Source: an uncultured Parafilimonas sp. (lineage in GTDB: Bacteria; Bacteroidota; Bacteroidia; Chitinophagales; Chitinophagaceae). From it: DNA of 64,000 nt. Below the pieces are notes generated by a model. It searched no databases. It saw nothing but the letters and a program-made list of their open reading frames with translations, and was not told where the DNA came from. Where the stretch lies: assembly GCA_903882935.1 (NCBI GenBank), contig CAIRZB010000070.1, positions 1-64,000 on the forward strand. Direction: 5' to 3'. Made by a program: the position numbers and the translations under genes. Shown here in pieces: positions 43,159 to 59,444 of this stretch (positions within the stretch are counted from its first letter, which is position 1; each line of letters opens with the position of its first letter).

Positions 43159-44667
43159 CTATTCCTCCTCAAACCGTATGCCATGCCTCCTCAGCTCTGT
43201 TAATACGGGCTCGTAAATGCTGGGTACGATGGGTATATGCAGGCCGGTTTCTGTTATCTGGCCTTCCAGAATTAAGCGGGCCGCAATGCCCAAAGGCAGG
43301 CCAACGGTTTTGGCCATGGCTGTGTGTACATTGTCTTCCCCTTTTACAACCAACGAACTTTTAACGGTTTTTTTTAGGCCGTTAAGCAAGTAGTCAATTT
43401 CGTGCATCATTACCACCATGTCTTTGTCATGCGGCTGTAGGGCAAGCTTTTTTTCCAAAATACATTGCAGTACGTCAGCTGGGCTGCAAAAACCCTTATT
43501 GATCGGTGTTTCATCGTCCAGCCCCAAAAAAAACAGTTGTTTCATGCTCAGGTTAGCTTCATGCATGGTGCTGGCCACGGTTTCGGCGGCCTTGTCTTTC
43601 ACGTCTTCCACATCTACCACATCAAGGTTGCCTTGTTCGTTCACCATCATAAACTGGTCCCCCATATCATCGTCATCCTCCTCGGAGGCTGCTTCTTCTG
43701 CATCCATCAGTTCCATCAGTTTTGCCATCATTTCCTTGGCATAATTCAAACGGCTGCCCAGCAGGTCGTTCAACCAGGTAGTAAACCCATTTTTCTCAAA
43801 ATGCAGCCTGAAAAATTCGGCAAACGTCATACCGTCGGTTTCATATACTTTTTCCTCGTCGGTAAGGCGCAGGTCAACAATATTCTTCCAGCCAAAGCAA
43901 AATTCTGGGTGGCGCAAGGTGGTACGTATAAATGTGTCGGTGCCGGGTATGCCGTAAATTTCCGCATAGCCCGAGGAGTCGCGGTTGGGGTAGTAGGCCA
44001 GGGGTTCCAGGCCGGTTACAAACACAGGCGGGTTGTGGGCAAACAATTGTTGGTAGGGTATGTGTACGGTATGGCCGTTTTGTGTATAGGTGGCGCCCGC
44101 TTTGCCTGCCAGAACCACATTGCGCGGGTTCCAGCTAATTTTATAATGCCAAGGGTTGTCGTCGCTTTCCGGGGCCACGAGGCCGCCGCAATGCGACAGG
44201 AAGGATGTAACTGTTCCGCCCTTTTGCTGTATGCCATGCAGCAGTTGCATGGCACTCATATGGTCAATGCCCGGGTCAAGGCCCATTTCGCACAAAAACA
44301 AAATGCCTTTGTCCTTAATGGCTGGGCCCAGCGCTTGTATGTTAGCATCGGTGTACGATGCGGTTAGCAGATGCTTGCCAAAATGCAGGCAGTCCTTTGC
44401 TACTAGAAAGTGCAGGGTTGGGGGCATTAAAGATATTACCAGCACCGCCTGCTGTATCAATGCCTGCCTGTCGGCATCGTTTTCAATATCCACTTGTACC
44501 GCTTTTGTATGGGTGTGGGTGCCTACTTTTTGTTGCACGGCCTGCAGGTTATTATCGGCAATGGTTACCGGCCAGTTGTTTTCGGCAGAAAGGTTTTTTA
44601 AATATTCAATTAAGCCTGTGGCAGACTTACCCGCGCCGAACAATACAATGTGTTTGGAGAAATCCAT
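43159..44667 (-). CDS. Saccharopine dehydrogenase family protein
   Basis: A 502-residue Rossmann-fold enzyme with NAD(P)-binding VLFGAGKSATGLIEYL at the N-terminus and the family segments CEMGLDPGIDHMSAM and YAEIYGIPGTDTFIRTTLRHPEF. The glutamate-forming enzyme splits saccharopine into aminoadipate semialdehyde and glutamate. Between about residues 321 and 360 it carries a highly acidic, Asp/Glu-rich insertion absent from ordinary members. The divergent flavin dehydrogenase and the nearby DUF1338 gene suggest lysine catabolism rather than biosynthesis. Confidence 0.87.
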   Translation of the reverse strand: MDFSKHIVLFGAGKSATGLIEYLKNLSAENNWPVTIADNNLQAVQQKVGTHTHTKAVQVDIENDADRQALIQQAVLVISLMPPTLHFLVAKDCLHFGKHLLTASYTDANIQALGPAIKDKGILFLCEMGLDPGIDHMSAMQLLHGIQQKGGTVTSFLSHCGGLVAPESDDNPWHYKISWNPRNVVLAGKAGATYTQNGHTVHIPYQQLFAHNPPVFVTGLEPLAYYPNRDSSGYAEIYGIPGTDTFIRTTLRHPEFCFGWKNIVDLRLTDEEKVYETDGMTFAEFFRLHFEKNGFTTWLNDLLGSRLNYAKEMMAKLMELMDAEEAASEEDDDDMGDQFMMVNEQGNLDVVDVEDVKDKAAETVASTMHEANLSMKQLFFLGLDDETPINKGFCSPADVLQCILEKKLALQPHDKDMVVMMHEIDYLLNGLKKTVKSSLVVKGEDNVHTAMAKTVGLPLGIAARLILEGQITETGLHIPIVPSIYEPVLTELRRHGIRFEEE

Positions 44668-44984
44668 AACGTAAATTAGTTGAGTAGCTATCGAAAAAGC
44701 TAAGGTAGGGCAGATTAGGGTAACTACAGGTTGGGTGAAGGGTTATATTTTGGCGACGGATATCTGTAATTGGTGAAGGGTTATGGTGCTGGCCAAAACG
44801 CCAAATGTTAAAAAGGAAGCGAGCTAAATTTTAAACCATCGTAAGTAAAAGGCCCTGTAATCAAATCCCTGTAATCAAATATTAAGTCGCAATTAAATGG
44901 GTTAGCCAAGTTGCTGTTTGGTGTTCTTAAAAAGCCGTTGTTAATTTACACTGTTTATGTGGCCGTTTTTAAAATGAATGCGTG
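44668..44984. promoter_or_regulatory. Divergent control region with two sets of direct repeats
   Basis: The 317-base gap between the divergent saccharopine dehydrogenase and flavin dehydrogenase genes contains GGTGAAGGGTTAT twice (44734-44746 and 44772-44784) and a perfect tandem pair of CCCTGTAATCAAAT (44853-44880). Direct repeats in a shared promoter region could be regulator sites. No exact TAnnTTTG box was found. Confidence 0.5.
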
Positions 44985-47804
44985 ATGCTTGATGAACTGC
45001 ACAAAATAATACCCCCCAGCCGGGTGCGCTCCAGGTATATTGATTTGGTTTCGTATGCTTCGGATGCAGGCTTTTATACCTTACTGCCCAAGGCGGTTGT
45101 ACTGCCGGTGGGCGAGGGGGAAGTGGCAGCGTTATTCCAATTTTCGCGGCTGCATAACATACCGTTGGTTTTTAGAACGGGCGGCACCAGCCTTTCTGGG
45201 CAGGCCATTACCGATGGCATATTGGTTGACCTTAGCCAACATTGGCATAAAATAGCGGTTGAAGATGCAGGCGGCGCAGTGCGCGTGCAGCCCGGCATAA
45301 CGGGGGCCATGGTGAACGCTTTTTTAAAGAAGTACCATAAAAAAATAGGCCCCGACCCGTCCAGCATAAGCGCGGCCATGATGGGAGGCATACTATCTAA
45401 CAATGCCAGCGGCATGTGTTGCGGTGTAAAGCTAAATTCCTACCATACTGTTAAATACATCAAATTCATACTGCCAAGCGGCAATGCCTTTAGCACGGAG
45501 GTTAAAAGCGACTATGCCCGTTTTGAACGCGAATGTGCAGGTTTGTTTGGCGAGCTGGCAAACATAAAAAAAGAAATTGCCAGCAACGGATTGCTCTACA
45601 ATAAAATACGGCAGAAATATTTAACCAAGAATACCGTAGGGTACTCGCTTAATGCGTTTATCGACCATACCCACCCGCTGGACATATTTGCCCACCTGTT
45701 AATAGGGGGGGAGGGAACCCTTGCCTTTATAGCGGAGGCGGTTATGGAAACAGTACCCGACTACCCCTGCAAAGCAACCGCGCTGCTGTATTTTACCGAT
45801 ATTTATGCTGCTTGCCAGGCAATAGTACCGCTTTCTGAAGCAGGTGCGGTAATGGTGGAGCTGATGGACAGGGCCTCACTGCATGCCGTTGAAAACCAGC
45901 AAGGCATGCCGGCCATCGTTAAAACCTTACCCGCAGGTGCGGCTGCTTTATTAATTGAGTTTCAGGAAAATAACTGGCAATCACTGGAGGGGCGTGTTAA
46001 CCATTTTTTGCAACTGGCAGGCGGCCTGTCTTTAATAACCGCACCCGTGTTTACCAGTGATGCCAAGGAGATGGACTTTTTGTGGAAGGTACGCAAAGGC
46101 TTGTTTCCGGCGGTTGGCGCGGTGCGGGCAAGCGGCACCACTGTTATTTTGGAGGATGTCGCGTTTCCTGTTGATAGGCTTGGCGATGCCATTATTGGTT
46201 TACAACAATTGTTTAAACAGTTTGGCTACGCCAACGCAATCATTTTTGGCCACGCAAAGGATGGTAACATACATTTTGTGGTAACGCAATCATTTGGCAA
46301 CCAAGCAGAAATAGCGCGCTACGACCAATTTATGCAAGCTGTGGTTGAGTTTGTGGTGGATAAATTCAGCGGCACCTTGAAGGCAGAACATGGCACCGGC
46401 CGTAACATGGCACCGTTTGTTGAAACTGAATGGGGCAGCGAGGCATACGGTATTATGCAGCGGATAAAACAAGCGGCTGACCCGTTGCACTTGTTAAACC
46501 CCGGTGTGATAATTAATGAGGATAAAAACATACACATAAAGAACTTGAAAGCTTTGCCGCCAGTAGAAGAGGAGGTGGATAAGTGCATTGAATGCGGGTA
46601 TTGCGAGCATAAATGCCCCAGCCGGGATTTAACGGCCACACCCAGGCGAAGAATCGTAATAAGAAGGGCATTGAAGCAGTTGGAACTATCTGGCGACAAT
46701 GCGGGGTATAAGCTGCTGCTAAGCCAGTCGAACTACGATGTGCTGGATACCTGCGCCGTAGACGGCTTGTGTGCAACTGCCTGCCCTGTGGATATTAACA
46801 CAGGTGACCTGGTCAAGAGCTTGCGGACAGAAAACCATTCGCCAATTGCCAATAAAACCGCACTGCTGGTGGCAAAAAATTTTAAGGCTGTTGTTTGGTT
46901 TGCCAGGTTTGCGTTGCAAACGGGTGCTGGCATAAATAAACTGTTTGGCAAAAATACCATGTTTGCCATAACCAAAGGGCTTCGTAACCTGACTACCGCC
47001 GTGCCATTGTGGAGTGCGCAAATTACTGCACCACCAAAATTATCGGTATTGCATGCAAAAGGGCGGCAGGGCAATGGAAAGCAAACCGTGGTTTATTTTC
47101 CCAGTTGCATATCAAGAATGCTGGGCACATACCCGGGCAAACAGCAAAACATTATGGAGGCTTTTGTAAGTGTATGCGATAAAGCTAAGATTAATGTTAT
47201 TGTGTCGGGCCACCAACAGCCCGGTTGCTGCGGCCAAATATTTTCCTCCAAAGGGTTTAAGGATGCAAACCATTACACAGCTAATGCCATTGTTGAACAG
47301 CTTTGGGAAAATAGCTGCGAAGGGCTGTACCCAATCGTGACAGATGTTAGCTCCTGTGCCTATACTTTGCATAATTTAAGGCCGGCATTAAGTGAAGAAA
47401 ACAAACAAAGGTTTAGCCAATTGACCATTTTGGACAGCATTGACTTTTTGCACGATACCATAATGCCCATAGCCAAAGTATTGGATAAAAAAAGCAATAT
47501 AGTTTTGCACCCTGTATGCAGTTTGGAGAAAATGAAAAGCGGTGCTAAGTTTATTGCACTGGCCAAACATTTTGCACAAGAAGTTACTGTGCCAAAATAT
47601 GCGGGATGCTGCGGCATGGCAGGCGACCGAGGGTTTTTGCTGCCACAGTTAACCACTGCTGCAACGTTGCCAGAGGCCATGGAAGTGCAGCAGCAAAAAT
47701 TTAGCGAATATTATTCTTCTACCAAAACCTGCGAAATGGCCATGTCGCAGGCGGTAGGGGCCAATTACGAATCCATTTTGTACTTGGTGGATGAAGCCAT
47801 TTGA
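44985..47804 (+). CDS. FAD-linked oxidase with Fe-S domain, probable D-2-hydroxyglutarate dehydrogenase (YdiJ type)
   Basis: A 939-residue two-part enzyme. The N-terminal half (to about 500) is a PCMH-type FAD-binding domain plus FAD-oxidase C domain (FRTGGTSLSGQA, GRNMAPFVETEWG). The C-terminal half has two 4Fe-4S motifs (CIECGYCEHKCP and CAVDGLCATACPVD) and two cysteine-rich CCG domains (CCGQIFSS, CCGMAGDRG) as in glycolate and lactate oxidases. This architecture is that of YdiJ, a D-2-hydroxyglutarate dehydrogenase. The DUF1338 product would be its substrate. D-lactate oxidation is the main alternative. ATG at 44985 is preferred over the adjoining GTG. Confidence 0.83.
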   Translation: MLDELHKIIPPSRVRSRYIDLVSYASDAGFYTLLPKAVVLPVGEGEVAALFQFSRLHNIPLVFRTGGTSLSGQAITDGILVDLSQHWHKIAVEDAGGAVRVQPGITGAMVNAFLKKYHKKIGPDPSSISAAMMGGILSNNASGMCCGVKLNSYHTVKYIKFILPSGNAFSTEVKSDYARFERECAGLFGELANIKKEIASNGLLYNKIRQKYLTKNTVGYSLNAFIDHTHPLDIFAHLLIGGEGTLAFIAEAVMETVPDYPCKATALLYFTDIYAACQAIVPLSEAGAVMVELMDRASLHAVENQQGMPAIVKTLPAGAAALLIEFQENNWQSLEGRVNHFLQLAGGLSLITAPVFTSDAKEMDFLWKVRKGLFPAVGAVRASGTTVILEDVAFPVDRLGDAIIGLQQLFKQFGYANAIIFGHAKDGNIHFVVTQSFGNQAEIARYDQFMQAVVEFVVDKFSGTLKAEHGTGRNMAPFVETEWGSEAYGIMQRIKQAADPLHLLNPGVIINEDKNIHIKNLKALPPVEEEVDKCIECGYCEHKCPSRDLTATPRRRIVIRRALKQLELSGDNAGYKLLLSQSNYDVLDTCAVDGLCATACPVDINTGDLVKSLRTENHSPIANKTALLVAKNFKAVVWFARFALQTGAGINKLFGKNTMFAITKGLRNLTTAVPLWSAQITAPPKLSVLHAKGRQGNGKQTVVYFPSCISRMLGTYPGKQQNIMEAFVSVCDKAKINVIVSGHQQPGCCGQIFSSKGFKDANHYTANAIVEQLWENSCEGLYPIVTDVSSCAYTLHNLRPALSEENKQRFSQLTILDSIDFLHDTIMPIAKVLDKKSNIVLHPVCSLEKMKSGAKFIALAKHFAQEVTVPKYAGCCGMAGDRGFLLPQLTTAATLPEAMEVQQQKFSEYYSSTKTCEMAMSQAVGANYESILYLVDEAI

Positions 47805-48351: not shown

Positions 48352-48993
48352 TTAAAAAAGAGTTAGTTCTGCCACCTCCACTTTTTGGCTGTCAAGGGTA
48401 GTAGCAATGTGGCATACAAATCCGCTCATTAAGGGTACGTTTGTTAGGTAGTAGGCTGTTTTGTTACAAATACATGGGTTATTTAATACATCAAACGATG
48501 CAAGATTGGCATATAAGCCCACCCCTGCCGCTTTTACTACAGCCTCTTTCCTTGTCCATAGGGTAAAAAATGTTTCTGTTTGGTTTGGGCTGTGGGCAAT
48601 GTATTCCCACTCGGTTAACGTAAAATATTCCTGATAGTTTACGAGGTCAATGTCCGTAATTTTTTCTACGTCTATGCCTACCGGGGCAACCTTACTGGCG
48701 GCTGAGGCCGCAATAATGCCCGAACGGCTATTGCTAAAGTATAAAGCCTTGTTAAAGTGTGGTTGGCCTGTTTTACTTAAAGTTATTTCCTCCAGTCCAA
48801 CCAAACGGGTCGTTTCAAAATATTCCATAAGCTTTCGCAGCAGTAGTTTACTACTTAATTGTAAAACCTGCTCAAAAGGGTTTGTATAAGCAGCTATTGT
48901 AGCCCTAATTGGCTGTGGCAGCAAATGCAGTCTTGCTTGCACTGTAGCAGGCGCAGGCGCATGGTGGATAGCTGTGAAATATATTTTTAGCAT
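48352..48993 (-). CDS. 4'-phosphopantetheinyl transferase superfamily protein
   Basis: A 213-residue Sfp-type enzyme that attaches phosphopantetheine to carrier proteins. Motifs are GIDVEKITDID (metal binding) and FFTLWTRKEAVVKAAG (W-x-x-K-E-A). The ATG at 48993 gives a normal N-terminus; the open frame extends to 49071. It is divergent from the poly(amino acid) synthetase gene 121 bases away, whose carrier domain is its likely substrate. Confidence 0.9.
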   Translation of the reverse strand: MLKIYFTAIHHAPAPATVQARLHLLPQPIRATIAAYTNPFEQVLQLSSKLLLRKLMEYFETTRLVGLEEITLSKTGQPHFNKALYFSNSRSGIIAASAASKVAPVGIDVEKITDIDLVNYQEYFTLTEWEYIAHSPNQTETFFTLWTRKEAVVKAAGVGLYANLASFDVLNNPCICNKTAYYLTNVPLMSGFVCHIATTLDSQKVEVAELTLF

Positions 48994-49035
48994 TTTGGCA
49001 GCACAAAAGCGGCGTTGATTAGCGTTACTTTGCCA

Positions 49036-49043
49036 CAAATATA
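49036..49043 (-). promoter_or_regulatory. Candidate -7 element for the transferase gene
   Basis: TATATTTG on the minus strand matches TAnnTTTG, 43 bases before the ATG at 48993. No clear upstream box. Confidence 0.35.
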
Positions 49044-49114
49044 GAATAGGATATTTTAGCTTGAACGGCATTGTAGAGTAACCAAAGAATAGGAAGGTTT
49101 TAAACCCACATTAG

Positions 49115-52100
49115 ATGCACGAGATTGCCGTAACGGCTGACAGTATTTTGAACGGACCAGCCCGGCCCGATTTGTTGAGGGAGGAGACGCTGGCCGACCT
49201 TTTTTCCCAATCTGCAAAAACATACCCCAATAACATAGCACTCATTTTTGGTGGCATGCAATTAAGCTATAAGCAATTGGATGTTTGGAGCAATGCCATT
49301 GCGGCCGATTTGCAAATAAAAGGCATAGGGAGGGGAAGTTATGTGGCCGTATGGTGGCGGCGTGGGCTGGAGTTACATGCTGCCATATTGGGTATAATAA
49401 AGGCCGGTGCCACTTATGTGCCAATTGACCGCGAAATGCCTGCGGAGCGGGTAGAAACAGTGCTTGCCGAGGTAAAAGCAACGGCCTGTTTTAGCAGGTT
49501 TGCACTAAATACCAGTGCGCTGTTATTACAGGTGCTGCCTTTGCCCCAAAATGATGAAACCCTGCCCCTTTCGTACCCTGCTTTACCGGATGATAACGCT
49601 TACGTGTTATACACCTCAGGCAGTACCGGTAAGCCCAAGGGCATCCCCATTACACACCGGCAAATCTGCCATTTGGTAAGGGCTGAGCAGAATTATTTTA
49701 ATGTACAGCCGGGGGACCGGGTTTACCAAGGCTTTTCTGTGTCGTTTGATATGTGGTGCGAAGAAACCTGGGTGGGGTATTTTGCCGGGGCTAGTTTGTG
49801 GGTGGCCGATGTTACCACTGCCAAGGCCATTGACGAGCTGGCGGAGGTGTTTAAGAAAAATGCCATCACGGTGTTCCATGCCGTGCCAAGCCTGCTGGCG
49901 GTTATGGACGACGACATACCCAGCCTGCGGTTGGTGAATGCGGGCGGCGAGGCCTGTACCCCGCAGGTGGTAAGCAAATGGGCCACAAAGGGCAGGCTGT
50001 TTTTTAACAGCTATGGCCCTACTGAAACAACCGTAAGCGCAACCATTAGCCAGCTTTTGCCGGGTGATGGCATTACCATTGGCAAACCCTTGCCAAACTA
50101 TGGTGTAGCAGTGGTTGACAGCCAATTAAGGGTTTTGCCAAGGGGGGAGAAGGGTGAATTGGTGATAGCCGGGCCGGGCGTGTCAGCCGGGTATGTAGGT
50201 TTGCCGGAGCTGAATAGGAAGAAGTTTTTGAAAAAGCCAGCAACACTTGCCGGTTTGCCGGGAGATAGGATATACCTTACCGGCGATGGTGCCACCATAG
50301 AAATGGATGGCAGCATAATATTCCTTGGCCGGTTAGACGACCAAGTAAAACTGCGTGGTTACCGGATAGAGTTGGGCGATATTGAAAGCCATTTGAATGC
50401 ACAGCCTTTTGTTTCCGCCGCGTCAGTGGCTGTAAAAAAAGACGGGATTGGTAATGAACACCTGGTAGCATACGTGGTATTGCGGCCGGGCGTGGCGTTA
50501 GATGAGCAGGCCTTGCGAGCTGAGCTTTCAAAAACACTGCCGCCGTACATGGTGCCCCAGGTTATTGTGCAATTGGATGATATGCCAAGAATGCCAAGCG
50601 GAAAAATAAACCGTGGGGCTTTGCCGGTACCTGCTGCGTTGCAGGCAGTGAAAGATGATGGGGCTGGGCAAACAATTGATATGAACGCGCCATTGGGCGA
50701 CAGGATGCTGGCGGTATTACGAAAGACCTTTCCAGGTAAGGAAATAAGCCTTTCGCAGGATTTTTTTACTGATTTAGGCGGCCACTCGCTTATAGCGGCC
50801 GGGTTTGTTTCCCGTTTCAGGCGCGAGGCGGGCGTGCCAAATGCATCGTTGAAAGACATTTACATACACCGGCCGTTAAGCGTTTTGGCTGGGGTTTGGC
50901 AACAATTGCCGCCTATGCCCGCCGCACCCAAAAATGTGTTTAACAAAATACCCCGCTTGCGTTATTATGCCTGCTGGCTGGCGCAATCGGCAGCGTTGTT
51001 TTTTATTTATGGTCTTTTTACCATAGAGGTGTTTACACCTTACGTGGGTTATTATTATACCAGTGAGGAAACCGGCAGCAAATGGCTGGGCATATTGGCA
51101 GCCGTGGTGTTTTATTGCCTGCTGCCACCCATATTTACCTTGATAGTGGTTGTGTTAAAATGGTTGGTAATTGGCCGGATGAAAGAGGGCGATTATCCCT
51201 TATGGGGCTTTTATTACTTCCGCTGGTGGCTTGTAAAAACGCTACAGCGGTTAATACCTTCGCAATTTATTAGCGGCACACCCTTGTACCCTGCGTTTTT
51301 AAGGTTGTATGGTGCCAAAGTTGCACCAGATGCCCAGCTAAGCAATATTGTTATTGGCGCGGAAGACTTGGTTACCATTGGCCGGGATGCAAGCCTTAGT
51401 TCGCAAGTGGTTATTGACAATGCTTTTGTGGAAAACGGGCTGCTGAAGCTTAGGCATGTTTCATTAGGCAACCATAGTTACATTGGCAGTAGTGCGGTAA
51501 TAGCCGGCGGCACAACTATTGAAGATTATGGCGAGTTACAGGACCTTAGCTATTTGCCAACAGGTGCCAATATACAGGAGGCCGAAGTATGGACCGGCAG
51601 CCCCGCCGTATTAAAAGAAAAAAAAGCGGTGGGTGATTTACCCAAGCCTCTCTTTACTTCCAGCGCAAAACGAACTGCTTACCAAGCGGTGTTTTTTATC
51701 TTGTTGTTTGCATTCCCGTTGTTTGTGTTATTGCCATTGCTGCCGGTAATAGTGGCACTGCATAACATGGATAATGCCTCTGGGGATTACGATTTTAGTT
51801 ACATATGGGCAGTACCACTGCTGTCGGTGCTTTACATGGTATTGTTTACCGTTGAAACAGTACTTTTTACCCGGCTGCTAAACATAAAAATAAAGCCGGG
51901 TAAATACCCGGTGCACTCAGGCACATATATTAAAAAGTGGTTGGCAGACCAGTTAATGGCCTTGAACCTGGTAGTAATGCACCCTATTTACGCCACCGTT
52001 TATGTGGCAGGCTTTTTTAGGCTGTTAGGTGCCAAAGTGGGGCGAAACACCGAAATATCAACCGCAAGCAGTGTAACACATCCTTTGTTGGAAATTGGCG

Positions 52101-53071
52101 ACGATGCGTTTGTTGCCGATGCTGTTACCCTGGGAGAGGCCGATGTAAGGGCCCAGCAGTTGGTATTGGACAAAACGGTGATTAAAAGCAACAGTTTTGT
52201 AGGCAACAGCGCGTTAATTCCCCAGGGGTATATGTTGCCCCCGGATATGCTGGTCGGCGTTTTGTCAACACCGCCTACATTGCAACAGCTTGCCGAGTCG
52301 GATGTAAAGGATTGGTTCGGGTCCCCGGCCCTTGCCCTGCCCCGCAGGCAACAAAGCCAGCAGTTTGGCGCAGCGTTAACGTCACGCCCACCGCTGGTGC
52401 GCAAAATTGCCAGGGGCGTGGTGGAGTTTATACGCATTATTCTGCCCGAGACAGTGATACTATGTGCAAGTATATTTTTTATTGCTTATGGGCACGACCT
52501 TATTGTGGGCGAGCCATTATGGAAAATAGCCCTGCAAATACCGGTTTATTATTTAAGTATAGTGGGTATACCAGCCGTGTTGGTTACGGCGGCTTTAAAG
52601 TGGCTGTTTGTAGGCCGTTACAAAACTGCGCAAATGCCTATGTGGACCATGCGGGTATGGCTTACCGAAGCAGTAACAAGCACATACGAAGCTCTTTGCG
52701 TGCCATTTTTGCTCGATTTTTTAAGGGGTACACCTTGGTTGCCAATTATGTTACGATTGTTTGGCACCCGAACCGGCAAACGTGTTTGGATGAATACGAC
52801 CGACATTACCGAATTTGACATGGTTAGCATTGGCACCGACACGGCTTTGAATGAAGACTGCGGCCCCCAAACACACTTATTTGAAGACCGCGTTATGAAG
52901 ATTGGCCCCGTAACAATTGGTGAACGCACCAGTATAGGTGCACGTAGCATTGTACTCTACGACACAAATATTGGTAACGATGTAAATATTGATGCCTTGT
53001 CGTTAGTAATGAAGGGGGAAACCTTAGCACCGGGTACAAGCTGGGCAGGCAGCCCCATTAAGCCTTTGTAA
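49115..53071 (+). CDS. Pls-type poly(amino acid) synthetase: A domain, carrier domain, six helices and three tandem C-terminal domains
   Basis: At 1318 residues it matches the size and layout of epsilon-poly-L-lysine synthetase. The adenylation domain (about 25-510) has YTSGSTGKPKG, SFDMWCEETW, NSYGPTETT, YLTGDGA and MPRMPSGKINRG. The carrier domain has the phosphopantetheine Ser in GGHSL (about residue 558). Six membrane helices follow in three pairs (about 630-680, 850-910, 1110-1165). Each pair is followed by a soluble left-handed beta-helix-like domain with hexapeptide repeats. There is no condensation or thioesterase domain, which is the hallmark of this group. It should make a short isopeptide-linked homopolymer at the membrane. 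Confidence 0.88.
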   Translation: MHEIAVTADSILNGPARPDLLREETLADLFSQSAKTYPNNIALIFGGMQLSYKQLDVWSNAIAADLQIKGIGRGSYVAVWWRRGLELHAAILGIIKAGATYVPIDREMPAERVETVLAEVKATACFSRFALNTSALLLQVLPLPQNDETLPLSYPALPDDNAYVLYTSGSTGKPKGIPITHRQICHLVRAEQNYFNVQPGDRVYQGFSVSFDMWCEETWVGYFAGASLWVADVTTAKAIDELAEVFKKNAITVFHAVPSLLAVMDDDIPSLRLVNAGGEACTPQVVSKWATKGRLFFNSYGPTETTVSATISQLLPGDGITIGKPLPNYGVAVVDSQLRVLPRGEKGELVIAGPGVSAGYVGLPELNRKKFLKKPATLAGLPGDRIYLTGDGATIEMDGSIIFLGRLDDQVKLRGYRIELGDIESHLNAQPFVSAASVAVKKDGIGNEHLVAYVVLRPGVALDEQALRAELSKTLPPYMVPQVIVQLDDMPRMPSGKINRGALPVPAALQAVKDDGAGQTIDMNAPLGDRMLAVLRKTFPGKEISLSQDFFTDLGGHSLIAAGFVSRFRREAGVPNASLKDIYIHRPLSVLAGVWQQLPPMPAAPKNVFNKIPRLRYYACWLAQSAALFFIYGLFTIEVFTPYVGYYYTSEETGSKWLGILAAVVFYCLLPPIFTLIVVVLKWLVIGRMKEGDYPLWGFYYFRWWLVKTLQRLIPSQFISGTPLYPAFLRLYGAKVAPDAQLSNIVIGAEDLVTIGRDASLSSQVVIDNAFVENGLLKLRHVSLGNHSYIGSSAVIAGGTTIEDYGELQDLSYLPTGANIQEAEVWTGSPAVLKEKKAVGDLPKPLFTSSAKRTAYQAVFFILLFAFPLFVLLPLLPVIVALHNMDNASGDYDFSYIWAVPLLSVLYMVLFTVETVLFTRLLNIKIKPGKYPVHSGTYIKKWLADQLMALNLVVMHPIYATVYVAGFFRLLGAKVGRNTEISTASSVTHPLLEIGDDAFVADAVTLGEADVRAQQLVLDKTVIKSNSFVGNSALIPQGYMLPPDMLVGVLSTPPTLQQLAESDVKDWFGSPALALPRRQQSQQFGAALTSRPPLVRKIARGVVEFIRIILPETVILCASIFFIAYGHDLIVGEPLWKIALQIPVYYLSIVGIPAVLVTAALKWLFVGRYKTAQMPMWTMRVWLTEAVTSTYEALCVPFLLDFLRGTPWLPIMLRLFGTRTGKRVWMNTTDITEFDMVSIGTDTALNEDCGPQTHLFEDRVMKIGPVTIGERTSIGARSIVLYDTNIGNDVNIDALSLVMKGETLAPGTSWAGSPIKPL

Positions 53072-56685: not shown

Positions 56686-57912
56686 TTACTTGAATTTTAA
56701 ATCAACCGACAGCACATCTGATAACAGGTCGGTGGTTTGTGTATAATGCCCGTATCGTATTTCCAACGCGCTAAGTTTAGATTTGAATAGCCCATTAGGC
56801 GGCGCAATACGCAGGTTTACGCCAAAATAATTGCTGCTAAAAGCCGAATAGGCATAATTACTTGTATAATATTCATCGGTTAGTTTATGCTGCATATACG
56901 GGGCAAAATATTTACCCTGGGTTTGCGTGTAGTACCTAAAAAATGGTGCCACTGAAAAAAACGGCGTTATTTTAACAGGTACTTCCAGGCTGGCTGTATG
57001 GGCACTTATACCCCAATCATCCATGTAGTAGCGGTAGTAACCCCGCAAAATAATGTTGTCGCCAATAAAGTAATTAAGCCGGGCCCCCACTGGTAATTTA
57101 AAGCGTTCACTCGGCAAAGCCTCAACCCGATCCAAGGTGTTGGAGAAATAAACCCTGTGAAAAGGCAGGCCAAGGTAGCCCCCCTGCCCCACAAGGTCAA
57201 CGCTGAGGCTGGCCTGCAGGCGTTTGTTAATAACCTGGGCATAGGTAAGGGAGTTGCTAAACGTGTACCGCCCACTCTTTGGCAGTCCGCTGCCTCCATC
57301 TGACGAAGACCCGCTAGCCCCTGTGTTAACCACTGTGGTGGGCAAATAGTCTGCTGCCAATTCGGTGGGGTATATCATGGTAACCCTGTCTAAAAAAATA
57401 TTTACCTTATCGCTCAATTCCCCATTTTTTTTATTCTTTTTCGCATATTCGGCGTTCAGTCCAAAAGAATGGTAATTGTATTCTGATGAGTAATAAAGCC
57501 CTGCGCCTACAGTGGTTCCTTTTTTCAAGTCTTCCATCGTCCAATTAAGGGATGGGTATATACGTGTTCCCCCCTTTTTAGACGCACCGGTTTCTGAAAC
57601 CCAGGCGGATGATGCGGAGGAATGATAGTCAATCCCCAAACCGGCTGTTACCGTATGCTTTCGTGAAAAACCGTCCCAGCCTGTAAATTTCAAGTCAAAG
57701 CCATTGGAAAAATCCAGTACTTTTTCGTTACCAATGCCGCCCGTTACCGCACTATGGTTGCCGTTTTGCGTGTAATAGCTGGATGTTAAGTTAACCTCTT
57801 CTAACGAAAGCGGTTTGTATTGGTACGTGGTTGCTTCTGCCGGTGCCGTTTGAGAAAAAGCTTGTAAAAGAGATACGTAAAGTGCGATTGTTGACAAAAA
57901 GAGTTTCTTCAT
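56686..57912 (-). CDS. DUF3570 outer-membrane-type protein, copy 1
   Basis: A 408-residue beta-rich protein with a signal peptide (about 1-20, ending QAFSQ). DUF3570 proteins have the pattern of outer-membrane barrels: alternating strands, many aromatic residues at strand ends and a C-terminal strand ending in phenylalanine (LDLKFK). It is about 60 percent similar by eye to the next gene throughout, so this is a tandem duplicate. Its role is unknown; the neighbours (DUF4266, ApbE, thioredoxin) suggest envelope redox chemistry. Confidence 0.82.
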   Translation of the reverse strand: MKKLFLSTIALYVSLLQAFSQTAPAEATTYQYKPLSLEEVNLTSSYYTQNGNHSAVTGGIGNEKVLDFSNGFDLKFTGWDGFSRKHTVTAGLGIDYHSSASSAWVSETGASKKGGTRIYPSLNWTMEDLKKGTTVGAGLYYSSEYNYHSFGLNAEYAKKNKKNGELSDKVNIFLDRVTMIYPTELAADYLPTTVVNTGASGSSSDGGSGLPKSGRYTFSNSLTYAQVINKRLQASLSVDLVGQGGYLGLPFHRVYFSNTLDRVEALPSERFKLPVGARLNYFIGDNIILRGYYRYYMDDWGISAHTASLEVPVKITPFFSVAPFFRYYTQTQGKYFAPYMQHKLTDEYYTSNYAYSAFSSNYFGVNLRIAPPNGLFKSKLSALEIRYGHYTQTTDLLSDVLSVDLKFK

Positions 57913-58205: not shown

Positions 58206-59444
58206 TTATTTAAACTTCAAATCCAAAGAAATAACATCCGACAACAAATCGGTTGTTTGTGTATAATGCCCGTAACGTATTTCCATTGAATTAAGCTTAG
58301 ATTTAAAAATGCCGTTTGGCGGTGCTATGCGGATGTTTACACCAAAAAAACTGCTGGCAAATGCCGAATAAGCGTAATTGCTGGTGTAATACTGGTCGGT
58401 TGTTTTATGTGCTTCGTAAGGTGCAAAATAATTGGCCGCTGTTTGGGTGTAGTACCTGTAAAATGGTGCCACTGAAAAGAACGGTGTTATTTTATAAGGT
58501 ATCTCCAAACTAGCTGTGTGGGCTTGAAGTCCCCAACTGTCAGTATAATAGCGGTAATAAGCACGCAAAATTACTTTGTCGCCCAAAAAGTAATTCAACC
58601 GGGCGCCAATGGGCAGTTTATACCTGGTGACAGGCAGGTTTTCAACACTGTCTTTGCCGTTGTTAAAATACACCCTGTGAAACGGTAAGCCAAGGTACCC
58701 GTTTTGCGCTACCAAGTCAACGTTAATGCTGCCTTGTAGGCGTTTGTTGATAACTTGGGAAAAACTGAAGCTGCCGCTGTAAGTGTTTCTGGGGCTGGTG
58801 GGTATATTATAATCCTCAGAACCGCCAGTGGTGGTGCTACGGCTGGCCGAGGTGTACACAACTGTGCCGGGTGTTGATTTGGGGATAAGCTCGGACGGGT
58901 AAATCAACGTTACCTTGTCAAAATAGGCATTCACTTTTGCGCTAAACTCTCCATTGGTATGTGTTTTTTTTGACACTTGAAGGTCCACGCCGATTGACTC
59001 GTAGTTGTACTCGGAGGAGTAGTATAGGCCAGCGCCAAAGCTTGTGCCTTTTTCCTCGTTTTCTTTAAGCCAATTAAGCGATGGGTAAATACGTGTGCCG
59101 CCAGTTTTTGAAGCACCGGTTTTTGACACATACGCGGCAGAGGCCGATGTGTGGTGGTCGAAGCCAAGGCCCGCTGTTATTGTATGCTTTATCCTGCCAT
59201 TTTCCCAACCTACAAATTTCAGGTCAAGGCCATTGGCAATGTCTGTTACCGTTTCGGTTCCAATACCTCCGGTTACGGCACTATGGTTGCCGGTTTGGCT
59301 GTAGTAGCTTGACACAAGGCCTATTTCGTCCAGCGTTAATGGCTTTGCCGTGTAGGTGTTCGCCGCGGAGTCTGCCGTGGTTTGTGCAAATGCATGCGCG
59401 AGCATTACATACATTGCTATGGTTGATAAGAATAGTTTTTTCAT
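58206..59444 (-). CDS. DUF3570 outer-membrane-type protein, copy 2
   Basis: A 412-residue protein with a signal peptide ending in HAFAQ and the same predicted barrel pattern as the neighbour at 56686-57912. The conserved pieces TPFFSVAPFFRYYTQT-type, SNYAYSAF and IRYGHYTQTTDLLSDV appear in both. This copy is directly downstream of the DUF4266 gene (40 bases) and is probably the original member of the operon; the other follows after the terminator at 58154-58182. Confidence 0.82.
   Translation of the reverse strand: MKKLFLSTIAMYVMLAHAFAQTTADSAANTYTAKPLTLDEIGLVSSYYSQTGNHSAVTGGIGTETVTDIANGLDLKFVGWENGRIKHTITAGLGFDHHTSASAAYVSKTGASKTGGTRIYPSLNWLKENEEKGTSFGAGLYYSSEYNYESIGVDLQVSKKTHTNGEFSAKVNAYFDKVTLIYPSELIPKSTPGTVVYTSASRSTTTGGSEDYNIPTSPRNTYSGSFSFSQVINKRLQGSINVDLVAQNGYLGLPFHRVYFNNGKDSVENLPVTRYKLPIGARLNYFLGDKVILRAYYRYYTDSWGLQAHTASLEIPYKITPFFSVAPFYRYYTQTAANYFAPYEAHKTTDQYYTSNYAYSAFASSFFGVNIRIAPPNGIFKSKLNSMEIRYGHYTQTTDLLSDVISLDLKFK

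Follow-up and report, generated by a model that had tools for sequence, protein, structure and literature searches.

The closest described relative of the enzyme considered here is PosA of Acinetobacter baumannii, the product of which is delta-poly-L-ornithine (PMC10522769). Structural and mutational data identified Asp217 and Glu221 as essential in the PosA pocket, with Thr304 and Ser313 assisting, and Met218 as the residue that limits chain length, its replacement in the M218A mutant raising lysine use about 10-fold (PMC10522769). The residue at this place, pocket position 2, is smaller the longer the substrate: it is alanine in Pls, the epsilon-poly-L-lysine synthetase of Streptomyces albulus (7wew), and phenylalanine in the actinomycete poly-diaminobutyrate and poly-diaminopropionate synthetases (PMC10522769). 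All these enzymes have in common with the one described below both family and architecture.

The window (the whole stretch of DNA analysed, 64,000 nucleotides) contains a gene of this family as a single unbroken open reading frame with an ATG start, extending exactly from 49115 to 53071. We read its product, with a probability of roughly 0.8, as a single-module, membrane-bound Pls/PosA-family homo-poly(amino acid) synthetase that would yield short delta-poly-L-ornithine. Its parts are as follows.

49115..53071, plus strand: Pls/PosA-family homo-poly(amino acid) synthetase, predicted delta-poly-L-ornithine synthetase (1318 aa; TIGR02353 match and A-T-terminal domain order).
49172..50644, plus strand: adenylation (A) domain, residues ~20-510 (AMP-binding match; PosA structure 8g95 as best single-domain PDB match; pocket residues).
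50702..50899, plus strand: thiolation (carrier, T) domain, residues ~530-595 (PP-binding match; LGGHS motif).
50981..53059, plus strand: terminal polymerisation domain (NRPS_term_dom), built of three left-handed beta-helix units (C1, C2 and C3) and three pairs of transmembrane helices (profile, hydropathy, repeat comparison, model).
52865..52891, plus strand: motif PQTHLFEDR in unit C3, containing Q1252, H1254 and D1258; it is near-invariant and a candidate site of acyl transfer (catalytic role proposed).

The protein scores 625.3 bits against TIGR02353, the curated NCBIfam model "Pls/PosA family non-ribosomal peptide synthetase" (family cut-off 423.1 bits), and the match covers residues 623-1315, corresponding to model positions 2-695 of 695. 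It has the family layout, in which a single A domain (Pfam AMP-binding, 247 bits; AMP-binding_C, 43 bits) is followed by a T domain with an LGGxS serine. The PP-binding score of the T domain is 22.1 bits, barely above the 20.8 cut-off; its LGGHS motif carries the phosphopantetheine serine, S558, which is near-invariant among the aligned family members. Besides AMP-binding, its C-terminal part and the phosphopantetheine attachment site, Pfam recognises hexapeptide repeats, as does phmmer. An ordinary NRPS module was rejected because neither a condensation nor a thioesterase domain was found and because the match to the terminal family is full length. In the host genome, estimated to be 99% complete, the gene is the only one of Pls/PosA type and the only one for an NRPS-like AMP-binding protein. 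The gene product is a complete, membrane-located member of the Pls/PosA family, an already known group of enzymes that link a single amino acid into short chains with positive charge, and it was this part of the earlier note's label, an enzyme of "epsilon-poly-lysine type", that stood; the likely product did not, since pocket and tree point to ornithine (see below).

For comparison with PosA, the A. baumannii gene was taken from a plasmid collection; its product is identical to the solved chain 8g95 over 412 residues. The two proteins agree in domain order (A-T-terminal), in their six helices and in the three tandem units, with identities of 42%, 35% and 35% in the A, T and terminal domains, respectively. 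The pocket of the window protein reads DMEHNGSVSK (D212, M213, E216, H255, N275, G277, S299, V307, S308 and K497) and is identical to that of PosA (DMEHNGTVSK) at 9 of 10 positions, differing by serine for threonine at position 7. The aspartate and glutamate of positions 1 and 3 are thus present (D212, E216), and the full set of counterparts to the PosA substrate residues is D212, M213, E216, S299 and S308. Position 2 is occupied by Met213 and not by the alanine of Pls. The same pattern, DMEHNG(S/T)V(S/T)K, fits 85 of the 86 full-length Bacteroidota proteins aligned. A search of the PDB gave the A domain of PosA (8g95) as the best single-domain match, with 338.8 bits, compared with 278.8 bits for that of Pls (7wew). 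Because the pocket is PosA-like, the rule for position 2 applies and the best structure match is the PosA A domain, the substrate is most likely ornithine rather than lysine; the earlier note's caution that a lysine product should not be assumed was well placed. The pocket code predicts substrates imperfectly, which counts against the ornithine call: one homologue with an unusual pocket made modest use of arginine and used none of the known diamino substrates (PMC10522769).

An enzyme of the same class might instead use another substrate (D-ornithine, 2,4-diaminobutyrate, arginine, or a beta- or hydroxylated diamino acid) or make a short oligomer or conjugate in place of a polymer. The threonine-to-serine change at position 7 and the threonine/serine variation at position 9 across Bacteroidota could be taken in this sense, family members with other pockets exist (alignment; PMC10522769), and the sequence does not reveal the length of the product. 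Nevertheless, every residue that touches the substrate in PosA is kept or conservatively replaced, and we regard such alternatives as unlikely. Diaminobutyrate (Dab) in particular would sit poorly with the locus. Two members with a DFECLS pocket (loci L123 and L129) lie beside Dab-forming transaminase genes, accompanied in L123 by an aspartate kinase gene, which fits the pocket-based reading of their substrate; no Dab-forming gene adjoins the window synthetase.

The phylogeny that the earlier note had called for was run with 45 family members, as a quick tree search with midpoint rooting and with SH-aLRT support in place of bootstrap; it did not include any full-length characterised Streptomyces Pls. 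The Bacteroidota proteins with a DMEHNG pocket, the window protein among them, form one clade (100% SH-aLRT); its nearest sampled group consists of PosA together with proteins of Azospirillum and Rhizobium (SH-aLRT 99%). The actinobacterial lysine- and Dab-type enzymes branch outside this grouping; in the alignment, relatives of these two types have pockets reading DAESIGT and DFE, respectively. Since the tree was quick, midpoint-rooted and without bootstrap, and since several end branches are long, the deep branching order must be considered provisional. The Azospirillum and Rhizobium enzymes have a different pocket, DLEDIG; therefore, the wider PosA clade is not uniform.

These results bear on the possibility that the preferred building block is L-lysine and the product epsilon-poly-L-lysine. 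Family membership is common to the window protein and Pls, whose A domain matches it strongly, and PosA itself uses lysine with low efficiency (PMC10522769). The methionine that occupies the chain-length position in place of the alanine of Pls (PMC10522769), and the position of the protein outside the actinobacterial DAESIG group speak against lysine, which we hold to be quite improbable. The closeness to the Streptomyces lysine enzyme proposed in the earlier note consequently gives way to a place beside PosA, to which pocket, tree and best structure match all assign the protein.

Hydropathy analysis of the terminal domain revealed six hydrophobic segments in three pairs (~619-640/655-690, 853-886/893-922 and 1102-1132/1138-1167), and profile comparison showed units C1, C2 and C3 to be repeats of one another (C1/C3, E=2.2e-21; C1/C2, E=2.2e-14; C2/C3, E=3.2e-8). 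The terminal domain was also modelled with AlphaFold2 (residues 601-1318; mean pLDDT 84, pTM 0.87), and the model contains six long helices together with three units of beta-helix fold. As these three lines of evidence agree, the helices and tandem domains had been described correctly at the outset, as had the length and the A-T order. In a fold search, the terminal-domain model matched mostly single beta-helix units; the modelled first unit aligns with maltose/galactoside acetyltransferases over ~145 residues with an rmsd of 2.7-3.4 A and a Z of ~8, a modest value on that scale. As modelled, the domain would resemble a trimer of hexapeptide acyltransferases joined in a single chain. A hexapeptide-acyltransferase-like arrangement has been published for the PosA terminal domain from two predictors (PMC10522769), and our search for a solved structure of a Pls/PosA terminal domain found none.

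Loss of C-terminal residues, named beforehand as grounds for abandoning the assignment, was looked for and not seen. From residue 505 onward, all 39 positions that are near-invariant in the alignment of 45 diverse members are kept, among them the carrier serine S558 and three residues of unit C3, Q1252, H1254 and D1258. The QxHxxxD motif formed by the last three is restricted to C3 and is absent from C1 and C2. In hexapeptide acyltransferases the usual base is a histidine in a beta-helix loop, and for this reason the His/Asp pair of C3 is proposed, by analogy, as a candidate catalytic site for acyl transfer. That the protein might be an inactive relic, or its terminal domain be used for something else, is suggested at most by patchy occurrence (in 6 of 395 evenly drawn Bacteroidota genomes) and is very hard to reconcile with an open frame, intact A, T and terminal-domain motifs, and full-length homologues that carry the same motifs at 51-65% identity across families.

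A carrier domain must be armed by a phosphopantetheinyl transferase, and one is encoded next to the synthetase, in the opposite orientation.

48352..48993, minus strand: 4'-phosphopantetheinyl transferase, divergent (ACPS Pfam, 59.9 bits; listed open reading frame 48352..49071).
48994..49114: intergenic stretch separating the two divergent gene starts, where both promoters presumably lie.

The transferase probably starts at an internal ATG at 48993 and not at the start of the listed frame. The gap to the synthetase is 43 bp with the listed frame and ~121 bp with the internal ATG; most other loci have spacings of 117-160 bp. A transferase gene adjoins the synthetase gene in 21 of 78 Bacteroidota loci, and the two are also neighbours in Sphingomonas and Rhizobium; posA, in contrast, has no annotated transferase gene next to it. 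Because the host genome encodes a second transferase (~200 aa) at another place, we do not claim an exclusive pairing.

Comparison of the window's neighbouring genes with the clusters found beside the synthetase in other loci disclosed no recurrent operon partner apart from the transferase, and no gene for ornithine supply, export or immunity was recognised beside the synthetase. A beta-helix protein, a MATE-like flippase, a saccharopine dehydrogenase and an FAD-linked oxidase were considered as partners and rejected, as they do not recur elsewhere; for the same reason the saccharopine dehydrogenase is not evidence for lysine. The gene for this dehydrogenase-like protein (43159-44667, minus strand) lies near that for the FAD/4Fe-4S oxidase (44982-47804, plus strand), which resembles D-2-hydroxyglutarate dehydrogenase; the two possibly serve lysine catabolism. 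Farther along the window, two adjacent genes for DUF3570 proteins of similar length (56686-57912 and 58206-59444, both on the minus strand) apparently reflect a tandem duplication.

In the mechanism we envisage, S558 would first receive its phosphopantetheine arm, plausibly from the transferase encoded next door, and the A domain would most likely activate L-ornithine as the adenylate and load it onto the armed serine. The terminal membrane domain would then link the loaded residue, by an isopeptide bond to the side-chain amine, with a second ornithine or with the chain already formed. Repeated cycles would give short delta-poly-L-ornithine, presumably released outward, where it might have an antimicrobial or biofilm-related role.

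The synthetase is a sound but ordinary member of its family, and the same gene is present in many other Bacteroidota. Its distribution there is patchy: apart from the evenly drawn genomes mentioned above, it was found in 8 of 61 relatives (own genome counted). A scan of species genomes yielded 153 encoding stretches; the 80 of these that were listed are all from Bacteroidota according to their titles, the main genera being Chitinophaga, Mucilaginibacter and Pedobacter. The Bacteroidota source assumed in the earlier note agrees with the occurrence of full-length homologues (51-64% identity) in genomes of the window's own family, and with the nearest named homologues, which are from Chitinophagaceae and Sphingobacteriaceae. 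Its description as a new producer type, on the other hand, does not hold at the level of annotation, where at least 80 Bacteroidota loci carry the gene and an antiSMASH NAPAA (non-alpha poly-amino acid) cluster has been given for Hymenobacter psoromatis (PMC11925752). The literature was searched for synthetases of poly-lysine or poly-ornithine from Bacteroidota or Chitinophaga without turning up any dedicated paper, and no purified product or enzyme from Bacteroidota was found in the literature searched.

A broader prediction, to which we give somewhat better than even odds, is that the proteins form a branch of poly-ornithine synthetases spanning the Bacteroidota, in many cases with a transferase encoded alongside, through which Chitinophagaceae and Sphingobacteriaceae routinely make delta-poly-L-ornithine, or a close variant, with antifungal or biofilm-modulating activity. 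As far as the literature searched tells, no cationic homo-poly(amino acid) would have been demonstrated in this phylum before. If the predicted product is correct, many culturable Bacteroidota (Chitinophaga, Mucilaginibacter, Pedobacter) would make poly-ornithine as a matter of course, and the trait would not be peculiar to Acinetobacter; the ecological role of the polymer, antifungal or biofilm-related, would become testable in harmless laboratory strains. The Bacteroidota homologues also form a diverse set in which the polymerisation mechanism of the terminal domain can be studied.

Several other loci deserve mention. One Pls/PosA-family protein encoded in a Bacteroidota genome (G445; L135:3707-7585) has a pocket of the lysine type, DAESIGTVIK, and stands in the tree on a long branch of its own, away from the ornithine-type clade; its neighbours are an AraC/GyrI-like regulator, a methyltransferase and YaaA. 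As a possible source of poly-lysine in Bacteroidota, it is a stronger candidate than the window gene. At 14 loci a GNAT acetyltransferase gene lies directly downstream of the synthetase gene on the same strand (e.g., L032:13940-14473 and L043:13931-14458; the examples read are from Chitinophaga), and GNAT genes also occur near the synthetase in Sphingomonas (L114) and Phyllobacterium (L125); acetylation possibly serves self-protection or product tailoring. Two actinobacterial synthetases of the lysine type (DAESIG; L124 and L126) are followed by genes for M1 metallopeptidases, for which a polymer-degrading or immunity function is possible. Finally, in a 48,274-base sequence of Pedobacter panaciterrae (NZ_LGEL01000037.1; L105 and L106), the two ends are mirror images, 99.97% identical over 15,268 bases, with a copy of the synthetase gene in each, reflecting either an inverted duplication or an assembly artefact.
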